Positions 18,228 to 28,999 of a DNA stretch of 42,729 nucleotides are shown piece after piece. This DNA is from Herbidospora cretacea (lineage in GTDB: Bacteria; Actinomycetota; Actinomycetes; Streptosporangiales; Streptosporangiaceae): NCBI RefSeq assembly GCF_001570605.1, contig NZ_BBXG01000033.1:1-42729 (forward strand), in the 5' to 3' direction. The position numbers and the translations under genes are program-made. Position 1 is the first letter of the stretch; each line of letters opens with the position of its first letter. Under the pieces are notes generated by a model. It was not told the DNA's origin and did no database searches. It saw nothing but the letters and a program-made list of their open reading frames with translations.

Positions 18228-20195
18228 GTGGTGGACTTCGAGATCCTGGGGCCGGTGCGTGCCCTGAAATCGGGGCGGCCGGTGAGGCTTCCGCCCAAAG
18301 CGCGGGCGGTGCTGGGGGCGCTGCTGCTGCATCCGGGCGCGGTCGTGTCCAAGGACCGGCTCCTGCGGTGCGTCTGGGACGAGCCGCCCGCCTCGGCGAT
18401 GGCCAATCTGCAGAACTACGTCTCGCTGCTGCGCAAGGAGGACATCGCGGTCGAGACGCACGAGCGCGGCTACCGGCTGCCGCTGGACGCCGGCCGCCTG
18501 GATCTGCTGGCCTTCGACGACGCGATCCGCCGGGCCCGCAGGAGCAGCGACGACGACCCGGCCGAGGCCATCGAGCTGTTCGGGCGGGCGCTGGGCCTGT
18601 GGCGGGGGCGGCCGGCCGAGGACGTGCCGCTGGGGGTGGCGGTAGCGCCGCGCGTCAGCGAGCTGGAGGAGCAGGCGGCCGCCGCCCGGCTCGACTGGAT
18701 CGACCTGCGATTACGCGCCGGTCACCACAACGACCTGGTCGGCGAGATCAAGGCGCTCGTGGCGGCCGCGCCGCTGAGCGAACGGCTGTGGGTGCGGCTC
18801 ATGCGGGCCCTCGACGGCGCGGGCCGCCGGGCCGAGGCCCTGGAGACCTACCGGCGGGCCCGCTCGGCGCTGGTCGGCGAGCTCGGCGTCGAGCCCGGCC
18901 CGGAGCTGCGCGAGCTGCACGCCGCGCTCCTGGACGGTACGCCCGAGGTGACGCCGCGCCGGGGGCCGTGCCTGCTGCCGCCCGACATCGCCGGGTTCGT
19001 CGGCCGGCGCGGGGAGGCCCGCCGCGTCGCCGAGGCGCTGCGCACCACCGGGGGCGCGCCGCCGATCGTGGTCGTGTCGGGGCCGCCCGGGGTCGGCAAG
19101 AGCACGCTGGCCGTGCACGTCTCCCACGAGCTGCGGGCGCGCTTCCCCGACGGCCAGCTGTTCGCCCGGCTCGACGGGGCCTCGGCCGCGCCGCGCGAAC
19201 CGGCGGCGCTGCTGGCGGAGCTGCTGCGCGCCCTCGGGGTGGACGGCGCGGCGCTGCCGCCGGCCGCCGAGGAGCGGGCCGCGCTGTACCGGGCGCTGCT
19301 GGCCGACCGGGCGGTGCTGGTGGTGTTGGACGACGCGGGCACCGAGACCCAGGTGCAGGCCCTGCTGCCCGGGACCGCGGACTCGGCGGTCGTGGTGACC
19401 TCGCAGGGGCCGCTGCCGCTGCTGGCGGGCGCGACCGCGGTCCCGCTGGACGTGCTGCCGCCCGCCGACGCGCACGCCCTGTTCGCCCAGGCCGCCGGGC
19501 CTGCCCGGGTGGCGGGCGACACGGCGGCGGCCGAGACGATCGTGCGGGCCTGCGGCCGGTTGCCGCTGGCGCTGCGCATCGCGGGGGCCCGGCTGGCGAC
19601 CCGCCCGGCGTGGCCGCCGGCGGAGCTGGCTCGGCGGCTGACCGAGGCGCGCCTCGACGAGCTGCGCTGGGGGCGGCTGTCCATCCGCAGCCCCTTCTCG
19701 ACGAGTTACGCCGCCCTGTCGCAGGAGGCGCGGCGGGCGTTCACCGCGTTCGGGCACCTGGGGGTGGACGGCCTGGCGTCGTGGTCGGTGGCGGCGCTGC
19801 TGGGCGAGCCGGAACGCGCGGCCGACTCCGCCCTGGAGGAGCTGGCCGCCGCCGGCCTGGTCACCGCCGGTGAACGGGACGCGGCCGGGCAGATCCGCCA
19901 TCGCATGCACAGCCTGCTGCTGCTCTACGCGGCGGAGGTGGCGTCGTCGTCGCGGGAGGCGCTGCGCCGCCTGCTGCGGACGGCGACCGCCCGGATCGCC
20001 GGCGCCGACCGGGCGTGGATCCTGGCCGAACGCGAGCTCCTGACCGCCGCCGTCACCGCCGCCGCCGAACGGGGCCTGACGGCCGAGGCCGCCGATCTGT
20101 CCGCCTCGTGCGCGCGAGGCACGCCCTGGGCCAGATCCAATTGCGTCAGGGCGATGCCGAAATGGCGCTGCGGCGCCGCACCGTCCGGCGGATAG
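18228..20195 (+). CDS. AfsR/SARP-type regulator (BTAD plus NB-ARC), truncated C-terminus
   Basis: 655 residues. The N-terminus is an OmpR-like winged helix (VDFEILGPVRAL through YVSLLRKEDIAVETHERGYRL, ~1-90). The BTAD helical domain ends in ALETYRRARSALVGELGVEPGPELRELHAALL (~205-240). An NB-ARC domain follows with Walker A VVSGPPGVGKSTLAVHV and Walker B VLVVLDDAG. SARP proteins activate antibiotic clusters; AfsR-like members integrate signals through ATP binding. Relatives continue with a long TPR domain. Here the frame ends in an unrelated tail (CARGTPWARSN), while a TPR-like HALGQIQLRQGDAEMAL survives in another frame at about 20117-20172. The sensor end therefore looks deleted. Start is GTG 18228 or 18231. 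Confidence 0.8.
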   Translation: MVDFEILGPVRALKSGRPVRLPPKARAVLGALLLHPGAVVSKDRLLRCVWDEPPASAMANLQNYVSLLRKEDIAVETHERGYRLPLDAGRLDLLAFDDAIRRARRSSDDDPAEAIELFGRALGLWRGRPAEDVPLGVAVAPRVSELEEQAAAARLDWIDLRLRAGHHNDLVGEIKALVAAAPLSERLWVRLMRALDGAGRRAEALETYRRARSALVGELGVEPGPELRELHAALLDGTPEVTPRRGPCLLPPDIAGFVGRRGEARRVAEALRTTGGAPPIVVVSGPPGVGKSTLAVHVSHELRARFPDGQLFARLDGASAAPREPAALLAELLRALGVDGAALPPAAEERAALYRALLADRAVLVVLDDAGTETQVQALLPGTADSAVVVTSQGPLPLLAGATAVPLDVLPPADAHALFAQAAGPARVAGDTAAAETIVRACGRLPLALRIAGARLATRPAWPPAELARRLTEARLDELRWGRLSIRSPFSTSYAALSQEARRAFTAFGHLGVDGLASWSVAALLGEPERAADSALEELAAAGLVTAGERDAAGQIRHRMHSLLLLYAAEVASSSREALRRLLRTATARIAGADRAWILAERELLTAAVTAAAERGLTAEAADLSASCARGTPWARSNCVRAMPKWRCGAAPSGG

Positions 20196-20213: not shown

Positions 20214-20246
20214 GGCCCCCGGGAAATGCCCTGTATCCCGGGGGCC
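20214..20246. terminator. Strong bidirectional hairpin terminator
   Basis: GGCCCCCGGG and CCCGGGGGCC form a perfect 10-bp stem with a 13-base loop. It lies between the end of the SARP gene (plus strand) and the end of the tRNA-like RNA array (minus strand), so it can terminate both. Confidence 0.75.
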
Positions 20247-20282
20247 GAAGGGCCGCCATATCGCGGCACCGGCGGCGTTTAA

Positions 20283-20387
20283 GGCCACAGATCACGATCA
20301 TGTCGCCTGCTCTTCCGTTGAGCCACGGGCGCATGAGAGCACCCGGCGGGATTCGAACCCGCAACCTGACGACCTTCGTCCGTGGCC
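20283..20387 (-). ncRNA. Permuted tRNA-like RNA, unit 2 (YrlA-type Y RNA candidate)
   Basis: Read on the minus strand, tRNA parts occur in rotated order. TCGTC (20372-20368, anticodon-stem 3' strand) is followed by the AGGTT variable loop and the T-arm GCGGG-TTCGAAT-CCCGC (20362-20346). Acceptor 3' strand CGGGTGC (20345-20339), a TCTCAT loop and acceptor 5' strand GCGCCCG (20332-20326) come next. T8 G9 and the D-arm GCTC-AACGGAA-GAGC lead to A26 and GGCGA (20307-20303). The acceptor strands pair over 7 bp (one G-U) and GGCGA pairs with TCGTC. Outside these, GGCCAC (20387-20382) pairs with GTGGCC (20288-20283), closing the RNA at about 105 nt. The internal loop strand GGACGAAGG recalls the GGUCCGAAGG of Y RNAs. 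The linker replaces the CCA end, so it is a tRNA mimic or a permuted tRNA precursor. Confidence 0.75.
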
Positions 20388-20422
20388 GGTCGATCCGGTG
20401 ACCGGCGGCGATGCTGAGTCTG

Positions 20423-20552
20423 GAGCGAGAGCCTGAGTTTGAGCGGCTGCCTCTACCGGTTGGGCCACCCCCGCGTGGGGTGCGGGGGGCAGGATTCGAA
20501 CCTGCGCTGTCACCGTGGTTCAGTCTGACTGCTTCAATTTCAGCTTGCGCTC
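20423..20552 (-). ncRNA. Permuted tRNA-like RNA, unit 1
   Basis: Same rotated order as unit 2. T-arm GCAGG-TTCGAAT-CCTGC (20505-20489) is followed by acceptor 3' strand CCCCCGC (20488-20482), an ACCCCAC loop and acceptor 5' strand GCGGGGG (20474-20468). T8 G9, the D-arm GCC-CAACCGGTAGA-GGC, A26 and GCCG (20447-20444) complete it. The acceptor pairs perfectly over 7 bp. GCCG can pair with CGGT (20515-20512, one G-U), and the loop then begins CTCAAA, an anticodon-like CAA with U33 and A37. The flanks GAGCG-CA-AGC-TGA (20552-20540) and TCA-G-GCT-CT-CGCTC (20436-20423) can pair. An alternative 10-bp pairing exists between 20566-20557 and the acceptor loop. The anticodon-side stem is weaker than in unit 2. 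Confidence 0.65.
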
Positions 20553-20591
20553 ATCACGCACCCCACCCTCTCGGGCAGGGGTCCTTGGGGG

Positions 20592-21329
20592 CTACCCCAG
20601 CAGGTAGCCGAACACCGCCTCGCCGATCTTCCTCTCGGTGATCTCGGTGCCGTTGGCCTCCTCGCGGGCGAACTTCACCGCCTCCTGGAGCTTGGTCAGG
20701 CGGCCGAGCAGCTCGTTGACGCGGCGCTGCGGCAGCGCGCCGGAGAAGGCGACGCGGGTCCAGTAGCCGACCACGACGTCCTCGTTGAAGACCTGGACCT
20801 GAGCCGGGTGCTTGTCGGTGGCCTCGGCCAGCACGTGGTTGCGCGGCACCTTCTTGGTCCGGGTCGTCTTGACCGGCTCGGTCCGCCAGGTGTCGGTGTT
20901 GGCGTCGAGCGCCCAGGTCTCCGACGGGTCGAGCGTGGGCAGCTTGGCGATCAGGGTGTGCAGGTCGGTGAGCTGCTTCTCGAGGAACAGCAGGTAGGTC
21001 ACCGGCACGTCGCGCAGCAGCGGGTTGCCGTCGACGACGACGTCGGCCCTGGCCGAGCAGTTGGCGACGTCCTTGGTGGCGGTCACGTCGAACAGCCGGG
21101 TGAGGGTGACCGCGACGTCCCGCAGCACCTGCTCGGCCTGCACCTGCACGCGGGTCGACTCCGGGGGCAGCGCTTCGCCCTCGTCGTCGATCGGCTGGTA
21201 GGTGCGGGAGATGCCGGACAGCAGCGGCGCCTTCTGGATCAGGTGGTAGGCGTCCGTCACCTTGCGCTGGACGTCGGATTTGACGCCCTTCTCCACGGCG
21301 AGGATCTGGTTGAGCTTGGTCACGATCAT
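20592..21329 (-). CDS. Conserved actinobacterial protein of unknown function beside the tRNA-like RNAs
   Basis: 245 residues, soluble, no signal peptide. I recognise the sequence type (MIVTKLNQILAVEKGVKSD, LLSGISRTYQPIDDEGE, LRDVAVTLTRLFDVTATKDVANCSARADVVVDG, VPVTYLLFLEKQLTDLHTLIAKLP) as a widely conserved actinomycete family; I think it is DUF7873, but its function is not known to me. The length and order of motifs look complete. ATG 21329 gives the usual family start, though no ribosome site precedes it; GTG 21374 is the alternative. Its stop lies about 40 bases before the first permuted tRNA-like RNA on the same strand, so one transcript could hold all three. A link to RNA repair or RNA binding is a guess from this position. 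Confidence 0.7.
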   Translation of the reverse strand: MIVTKLNQILAVEKGVKSDVQRKVTDAYHLIQKAPLLSGISRTYQPIDDEGEALPPESTRVQVQAEQVLRDVAVTLTRLFDVTATKDVANCSARADVVVDGNPLLRDVPVTYLLFLEKQLTDLHTLIAKLPTLDPSETWALDANTDTWRTEPVKTTRTKKVPRNHVLAEATDKHPAQVQVFNEDVVVGYWTRVAFSGALPQRRVNELLGRLTKLQEAVKFAREEANGTEITERKIGEAVFGYLLG

Positions 21330-21391
21330 GACGGTAGCGGGAGGAGCGCCGGTCTTCACCTGAATTGTCGGCACTGGCCCGCGCCGACCGG

Positions 21392-28779: not shown

Positions 28780-28799
28780 GGGTGGGGTTGACTCCTTGC

Positions 28800-28983
28800 T
28801 TCCATGCCGCCTACCGGGTTAGCTGACGGATTCGGGCGTGGAAGCCGCCCTACGGCCTGTCCTGAGGGGGTAACAGGCCGATTCACCCCAGAGGACCCGG
28901 TGGTGTGCTTGGTGATCGGGAGAGGGATCACCGGGTCCTCGCTGGTTCCCCGGTTCCGCGCGGGGCGCGCGGATTCGGCGATC
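28800..28983 (-). ncRNA. ydaO-type cyclic di-AMP riboswitch
   Basis: On the minus strand the conserved blocks appear in order: CGCCGAATCC with a GCGCG hairpin and GGAACCGGGGAACC (28982-28944), GGGGTGAATCGG (28889-28878), GTAGGGCGGC (near 28853), and CCGTCAGCTAACCCGG then TAGGCGG (28830-28807). It ends about 20 bases before the CHAP gene start. This class normally turns expression off when c-di-AMP is high. The match to the class is by eye but long and ordered. Confidence 0.88.
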
Positions 28984-28999
28984 TCTAGTTGTCTGCCTT

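Follow-up and report, generated by a model that had tools for sequence, protein, structure and literature searches.

To our knowledge, few ribonucleoproteins (RNPs) that mimic transfer RNA (tRNA) are known: tmRNA with SmpB, Y RNAs with Ro, and viral tRNA-like ends. Contig NZ_BBXG01000033.1 of the soil bacterium Herbidospora cretacea (assembly GCF_001570605.1, positions 1 to 42,729; this whole stretch of 42,729 nucleotides (nt) is called the window) carries a gene-RNA pair that looks like an undescribed RNA-protein machine imitating tRNA. On the minus strand, two tandem circularly permuted tRNA-like units, A and B, and then a conserved 3' hairpin lie immediately 3' of a gene of the DUF7873 family. 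The two units are real, and together with the hairpin they are predicted from the sequence to be a single RNA of ~350 nt.

The closest described fold is that of the Y RNA YrlA (RF02553), a permuted T-arm/acceptor/D-arm module on a long basal stem, which in this genome also occurs in tandem beside a protein gene. In the excerpted texts of three articles, YrlA and Rsr are described as altering the substrate choice of PNPase (PMC8394870), the tRNA-like domain of YrlA is suggested to inhibit an anticodon nuclease by competition (PMC7790460), and a phage of Listeria may encode an Rsr and Y RNAs of its own (PMC12282133). There are thus parallels for a tRNA mimic carried by phages, although the DUF7873 module is separate from Rsr. 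Unlike YrlA, the module has DUF7873 rather than a TROVE protein as its partner, a different set of conserved basal stems, two heads whose register is nearly constant, CCA after nucleotide 73 (N73) at many acceptor ends, a unit-specific N73, and a Leu-type D-arm in unit A.

Two-piece tmRNA, whose pieces function unligated according to the excerpted text of PMC3978253, shares the permutation point with the module (acceptor 3' strand and CCA, loop, acceptor 5' strand), although in the module this holds for part of the family and CCA is not encoded in the window's units. The module differs in its true D-stems, its two heads and a unit A that is Leu-like rather than Ala-like, and no tag sequence was identified. 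The Rfam tmRNA model (RF00023) matched nothing in the window or in 11 module loci, save a separate tmRNA outside the module at one phage locus. Permuted tRNA genes of algae and Thermofilum differ again. A preliminary description of this DNA had raised permuted tRNA genes of the algal and archaeal kind, a comparison that fails here: the units lack an anticodon loop and their ends continue into long paired stems, and thus no ordinary tRNA can result from the module. In the set of open-access papers searched (subscription papers and preprints fell outside the scope), none listed describes the module in its title or the start of its abstract, and DUF7873 gave no paper.

Layout and conservation of the locus

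Units were located with a purpose-built permuted-tRNA scanner, which requires the acceptor, T-arm and D-arm to pair, and with two covariance models, R1 for unit B (37 training rows, 14 directly from a draw of genomes of the order; others may come from the same genomes) and R2 for unit A, both trained on bacteria and three viral contigs. The features, in window coordinates, are as follows.

20592..21374, minus strand: DUF7873 gene (Pfam PF25283, 389 bits, E 1e-116)
20412..20563, minus strand: RNA unit A, complete (model R2, 158 bits, the unit being in the training set; covariation)
20546..20560, minus strand: 5' hairpin P0 of unit A (double change in 2/4 pairs)
20540..20544, minus strand: outer stem of unit A, 5' strand GCUGA, partner 20413-20417 (near-invariant, hardly tested by covariation)
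20489..20505, minus strand: T-arm of unit A (scanner)
20482..20488, minus strand: acceptor 3' strand of unit A (double changes in 7/7 pairs; scanner-selected helix)
20475..20481, minus strand: linker of unit A, ACCCCAC, 7 nt, N73 = A, a predicted processing site (scanner)
20468..20474, minus strand: acceptor 5' strand of unit A, followed by U8-G9 (scanner)
20449..20465, minus strand: D-arm of unit A, tRNA-Leu type (pattern search of the own genome)
20413..20417, minus strand: outer stem of unit A, 3' strand UCAGC (covariation alignment of unit A)
20251..20411, minus strand: RNA unit B, complete (model R1, 162 bits, the unit being in the training set; minimum free energy (MFE) fold)
20404..20409, minus strand: outer stem P1 of unit B, 5' strand, partner 20252-20257 (covariation)
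20395..20400, minus strand: outer stem P2 of unit B, 5' strand, partner 20267-20272 (covariation)
20379..20387, minus strand: outer stem P3 of unit B, 5' strand, partner 20283-20291 (covariation; contains GGCCAC/GTGGCC)
20346..20362, minus strand: T-arm of unit B (scanner)
20339..20345, minus strand: acceptor 3' strand of unit B (covariation; scanner-selected helix)
20333..20338, minus strand: linker of unit B, TCTCAT, 6 nt, N73 = U (scanner)
20326..20332, minus strand: acceptor 5' strand of unit B (covariation; scanner-selected helix)
20309..20323, minus strand: D-arm of unit B (scanner)
20214..20246, minus strand: conserved 3' hairpin after unit B (double changes in 6/8 pairs)

The preliminary description had placed two permuted tRNA-like RNAs at 20283-20552. 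The location stands, but the extent was too narrow, omitting P1 and P2 of unit B (to 20251), the start of the 5' hairpin of unit A, and the 3' hairpin. The tRNA parts that it had read in rotated order in both units (T-arm, acceptor 3' strand, linker, acceptor 5' strand, U8-G9 and D-arm) were all located, with acceptors pairing 7/7 in both (all Watson-Crick in A, one G-U in B). The rotated anticodon stems are likewise present, and the outer GGCCAC/GTGGCC pairing belongs to P3 of unit B. The conserved unknown gene that it had noticed beside the tandem pair is the DUF7873 gene, and the link between the two is real.

Within the window, the two units score 42.3 and 43.4 with the scanner, and the next best stretch on either strand scores 34.3. 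At a cut-off of 38, and with the gene end misplaced in some loci, dinucleotide shuffles of 160 homologous loci gave 0/800 matches, the opposite strand downstream 0/160, and the plus strand upstream 0/80 in genome and 2/80 in viral loci. ARAGORN finds no ordinary tRNA in the window. An ordinary tRNA in linear order (5' half of A with 3' half of B) was considered and rejected: the acceptor pairs 7/7 in 3/93 sets and at least 6/7 in 15/93.

In the alignment of unit B (37 sequences), 96.5% of cells pair and double changes occur in 33/45 pairs, compared with a shuffled mean of 22.4. The covariation score is 0.513 vs 0.215 shuffled, and 0/500 shuffles reach any observed value; shifting the partner by 1 to 3 columns lowers pairing to at most 49%. 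Covariation in the acceptor, T- and D-arm helices is partly circular because the scanner demands pairing there. The outer helices are free of this circularity because they were not used for sequence selection, and the unit B helices outside that selection have double changes in 4/6 (P1), 4/6 (P2), 7/9 (P3) and 6/8 (3' hairpin) pairs. For unit A (49 sequences) double changes occur in 16/36 pairs vs 7.6 shuffled. A cross-pairing test of the outer helix gave 19.05 within vs 16.61 across sequences for unit B, and 17.49 vs 17.03 for unit A. The compensatory changes that had been put forward as a check on the first reading are found in the acceptor and outer stems of unit B and in the acceptor of unit A, but not in the near-invariant outer stem of unit A.

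The DUF7873 gene clears its Pfam cut-off by far (389 bits vs 27 bits), and the protein likely starts at the ATG at 21329, giving 245 aa, close to where homologues begin. The AlphaFold2 model (pLDDT 93.4, pTM 0.78) has long helices and sheets. Foldseek found no match at E 0.001 in PDB or BFVD, the best among solved structures (E 0.008 with TM 0.14) being noise; of the matches listed, an uncharacterised protein of a crAss-like phage (TM 0.43/0.57) alone has a probability near 1. Sequence searches of NCBIfam, PHROGs, PADLOC and PDB sequences returned nothing meaningful, and a YicC-like C-terminal match in one phage protein (19.8 bits, below the cut-off of 27) was set aside.

DUF7873 was identified in 46/150 genomes of the order (42 strong, 4 weak or partial), in 6/296 genomes drawn from the phylum, the own genome included, and in 73 phage records. 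Genome contigs yielded at least 557 relatives among at least 591 pattern matches, of which 80 were kept for analysis; the closest among the matches listed are from Herbidospora, at ~90% identity. Full-length R1 matches (at least 59 bits) occur in 42/150 order genomes, which are exactly the 42 with strong DUF7873 and on the same contig in each, and in 0/108 others. In the phylum draw, strong R1 matches (at least 75 bits) are the 6 DUF7873 genomes, and the other 290 have none above 50 bits; both searches were run with the stricter filter settings of Infernal, at the cost of weak matches. The gap between the Pfam and RNA matches is 134-252 nt in the 12 of the 42 genomes for which it was computed, and the spacing from A to B is mostly 142-156 nt in bacteria and phages.

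Within 620 nt downstream of the gene, the scanner finds at least two units in 67/80 genome loci (12 have one, 1 none), two in 23/30 order loci (one in 7/30), two in 9/12 phage and plasmid records (one in 3/12), and two in 42/79 viral contigs (25 have one and 12 none, some of the latter, e.g., L052, being scanner or placement failures; L and G numbers are our handles for loci and genomes). The order and genome-contig sets share genomes, so these groups are not independent. Of the three loci that the script could not place, two from Vibrio phages (L048, L049) have one unit each by eye and L131 is matched by R1. Besides frames overlapping the DUF7873 gene, no open reading frame (ORF) family occurs in more than 14/80 genome or 10/80 viral loci. 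As no other neighbouring ORF family is widely kept, the module appears to be two-part.

Nearby, a gene for a SARP-like regulator (BTAD, NB-ARC, Trans_reg_C; 18228-20195, plus strand) is transcribed in the direction of the RNA and ends ~20 bp from the 3' hairpin. In the Rfam scan of the window, only a c-di-AMP riboswitch (ydaO/yuaA leader; 28793-28990, minus strand, 80.7 bits) reaches its gathering score. Weak matches in the window to Scr6925, tRNA-Sec and others were taken as chance.

Comparison with YrlA and Rsr

The preliminary description had named YrlA-type Y RNAs as the candidate identity. The YrlA covariance search that it had proposed gave 39.6 bits for unit B and 19.4 for unit A, with a gathering score of 69. 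The own genome has a second tandem permuted-tRNA locus (L002; G000:C9 281342-282597), where two YrlAs lie just upstream of a TROVE gene, and these also fall short, at 40.5 and 39.4 bits. The Rfam YrlA score cannot separate the module from Y RNAs, since Rsr-linked YrlAs of the same genome score about the same as unit B, also below 69.

To compare the two kinds directly, we used 30 permuted cores from 20 TROVE-side stretches and the own locus. Acceptor loops in these YrlA cores are 2-11 nt long (mostly 3-7), all four bases occur at N73 (G 11, U 8, C 7, A 4), and CCA follows in 4/30, all from the window's genus. A pair of basal-stem motifs is present in 30/30 YrlA cores (by construction), and in 0/122 A and 0/116 B module units. 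No TROVE was detected in the Pfam scan of the module's adjacent gene, and hhalign with the own-genome TROVE protein gave a probability of 0.1. The Y RNA reading is thus partly supported: core and fold resemble YrlA, but the partner is DUF7873, not Rsr/TROVE, and the Rsr-linked stem motif is absent.

TROVE genes were identified in 66/150 order genomes: 28/42 with the module vs 38/108 without it. The 14/42 module genomes without a TROVE hit include two single-contig genomes, G051 and G081, though a divergent TROVE could escape detection. R1 also gave weaker matches (29-53 bits), which correspond to unit A of the module or, often, to YrlA cores beside TROVE genes; 26/33 genomes with only weak matches have TROVE. 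Three permuted cores in tandem were seen beside TROVE in two relatives (L243, L248).

Phage loci and acceptor ends

R1 matches at E 1e-5 or better occur in 75/80 viral DUF7873 loci, three of them in the training set and two (L102, L105) matching in the tRNA-like core only. The five others are L072, where the contig ends, L126, in which the scanner locates A and B with long loops, and L081, L083 and L096. In phages of Arthrobacter, Gordonia and Rhodococcus the gene-RNA pair sits within or next to tRNA arrays; in Gordonia phage Keelan it is near single tRNAs, with a tRNA-Thr between gene and RNA. It is also present in a phage of the cyanobacterium Pseudanabaena and in Klebsiella jumbo phages, whose units score low (27 and 40), and as a one-unit form with a long loop in Rhizobium and Vibrio phages. 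Phages outside the training set score 87 (Racecar), 80 (NiceHouse) and 45 (Keelan) bits with R1, and 93, 81 and 72.5 bits with R2. Acceptor loops of up to 76 nt occur among the units.

Several further observations were made in the phage loci. In Klebsiella phage FBKp24 (L050 3518-3597) an annotated suppressor tRNA overlaps unit B and is probably a misread part of the module. Upstream of the DUF7873 gene of Gordonia phage Phendrix (L039 575-1103), where no RNA is annotated, there is a tmRNA match (RF00023, 89 bits). One phage contig has several extra unit-B-like matches (L116 3429-5103), and the 392-kb contig of L097 (G157) has 10 matches at E 0.01; weak ones may be ordinary tRNAs. By eye, the 3' hairpin loop keeps a sequence like GGAUAUG or GGAUGGUA across distant phages (e.g., L038, L041, L043, L048), which exceeds the needs of a terminator. 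CUGA-rich and UUAUCxCxCCAA-like strands flank actinobacterial unit A and seem, also by eye, to be kept where unit A is missing, in phages of Vibrio and Rhizobium (L048, L046); they are possibly the core protein-binding site.

Of the 217 distinct units whose linker is 7 nt or longer, 80 have CCA exactly at tRNA positions 74-76; at offsets 0, 2, 3 and 4 it occurs in 10/868. By group, the viral counts are 21/39 for A, 15/41 for B and 11/19 for single units, and the bacterial counts 19/53, 11/55 and 3/10. N73 is A in 74/79 bacterial A units and U (57/74) or G (17/74) in bacterial B units. A U directly precedes the acceptor 5' strand in 23/43 viral A, 27/42 viral B, 47/74 bacterial B and 11/75 bacterial A units; this hint of RNase P sites is weak because of the last count.

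The D-arm of unit A is nearest to tRNA-Leu in 29/30 distinct viral cases, compared with 326 tRNAs of the same loci, 46 of them Leu. In the own genome its pattern occurs four times, namely in unit A and three tRNA-Leu genes (reversed control 0). LeuRS, the leucyl-tRNA synthetase, of E. coli is not known to read the anticodon. The D-arm pattern of unit B is common to two tRNA-Lys and two tRNA-Gly in the own genome (reversed control 1), and phage D-arms gave no clear answer on its isotype; bacterial tRNA-Gly has U73. A G3-U70 pair marks tmRNA. In the module, acceptor pair 3 is C-G in 72/82 bacterial A units, with G-U in 3/82 A and 14/90 B units, so the alanine identity pair is not typical of either unit.

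Proposed mechanism and rival explanations

We propose that DUF7873 and the ~350-nt RNA would form a two-component RNP with two tRNA-like heads, set in a register of ~145 nt in most loci. Each head is a permuted tRNA without an anticodon loop: long basal stems lead off from the anticodon position, and the acceptor is closed by a loop with N73 and, often, CCA. RNase P may cleave each head on the 5' side of G1, after which trimming of the 3' end or addition of CCA could give true tRNA 3' ends, as in two-piece tmRNA; by the same analogy the long basal stems might hold three RNA pieces together, with DUF7873 presumably bound to them. The heads would engage tRNA-handling enzymes, in the case of A probably LeuRS. 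The most likely use would be as a decoy or sensor, set against real tRNAs, for a factor that acts on tRNA, e.g., a nuclease or a charging enzyme, something from which phages would benefit and which Streptosporangiales and Streptomyces have retained. The structural part of this explanation is near-certain and DUF7873 is very probably the partner of the RNA. We consider processing of the heads to CCA ends probable, and are tentative about the decoy role, leaning somewhat against it. Taken whole, a tRNA-mimicking RNP with processed CCA ends and a decoy or sensor use has, in our judgement, an even chance of being right.

A number of results weigh against this proposal. The outer stem of unit A is without covariation support, because it is near-invariant and pairs as well across sequences as within them. 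In the single-sequence fold of unit A the T- and acceptor helices form and the outer stems do not, and unit A by itself is no more stable than shuffles (z -0.72). For unit B the MFE fold shows the permuted cloverleaf together with the outer stems and is moderately more stable than shuffles (z -1.94). Comparative data, rather than folding energies, carry the case. RNA binding by DUF7873 lacks structural support, since a confident model matches no solved fold. Among the viral loci, no RNA adjoins the gene at L081 and L083 (a match on the L081 contig is ~8 kb away), and there is no RNA match anywhere on the L096 contig. Two heads are not universal, since Vibrio and Rhizobium phages have one unit, and R1 and R2 do not detect these one-unit forms above chance. 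The window's own units (ACCCCAC, TCTCAT) do not encode CCA, nor do most bacterial units, so there CCA would need to be added post-transcriptionally; the CCA counts, moreover, are not independent events because the units, though distinct, are related.

That the units are remnants of tRNA genes or a chance arrangement has in its favour only that their parts are common tRNA motifs, and it is already refuted, beyond practical doubt, by covariation and co-occurrence. A second pair of true YrlA Y RNAs, which would associate in trans with the Rsr (TROVE) protein of this genome and link it to PNPase, with DUF7873 as an accessory, would account for a YrlA score on unit B (39.6 bits) level with that of Rsr-linked YrlAs, for the TROVE gene and two YrlAs of the own genome, and for the higher TROVE share in module genomes (28/42) than in others (38/108). 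We consider it improbable, because 14/42 module genomes, the single-contig G051 and G081 among them, have no TROVE hit, the paired basal-stem motifs occur in 0/238 module units, and YrlA cores, with loops mostly of 3-7 nt, mixed N73 and CCA in 4/30, are unlike the module. A cis element in the 3' untranslated region of the DUF7873 mRNA, controlling its stability or level through tRNA-like processing, would fit an RNA that is mostly just 3' of the gene and on the same strand. This seems very improbable given an RNA on the opposite strand at L108, one ~8 kb away on the L081 contig, the intervening tRNA-Thr in Keelan, and the RNA's own 3' hairpin.

Closer to our proposal, the acceptor loops may stay closed, so that the RNA would act as an uncut decoy blocking tRNA-cleaving defence nucleases or tRNA-modifying enzymes, with CCA a relic of descent from tRNA genes. 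The location of the module inside phage tRNA arrays suits this, as do heads that retain the elbow, T- and D-arm without an anticodon loop, and the competitive-inhibitor role suggested for the YrlA tRNA-like domain in the excerpted text of PMC7790460. We judge it clearly unlikely, since a relic could scarcely be expected to retain CCA exactly at 74-76 in diverged phages or an N73 so strongly conserved within each unit, and since loops of up to 76 nt are tolerated.

The proposal of a processed RNP can also be carried further, to a new translation-related RNP: two cuts by RNase P would divide the transcript into three paired pieces, with two aminoacylatable CCA ends (one leucine-type, one possibly glycine-type), DUF7873 as scaffold and no anticodon. 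Such an RNP would act on ribosomes or tRNA enzymes as no known RNA does and would be shared by phages and their hosts. We regard this version as rather unlikely. Whether the system is categorically new depends on the ends being processed, and perhaps charged; otherwise it would be one more kind among tRNA-mimicking RNPs.

In either case, the module would add a tRNA-mimicking RNP that has two heads and a dedicated protein, apparently of a new fold, and that is widespread in phages. DUF7873, a family of unknown function, gains a testable RNA-binding hypothesis, and phage tRNA arrays would gain a new component. The module also suggests repeated use of permuted tRNA folds as parts of RNPs.
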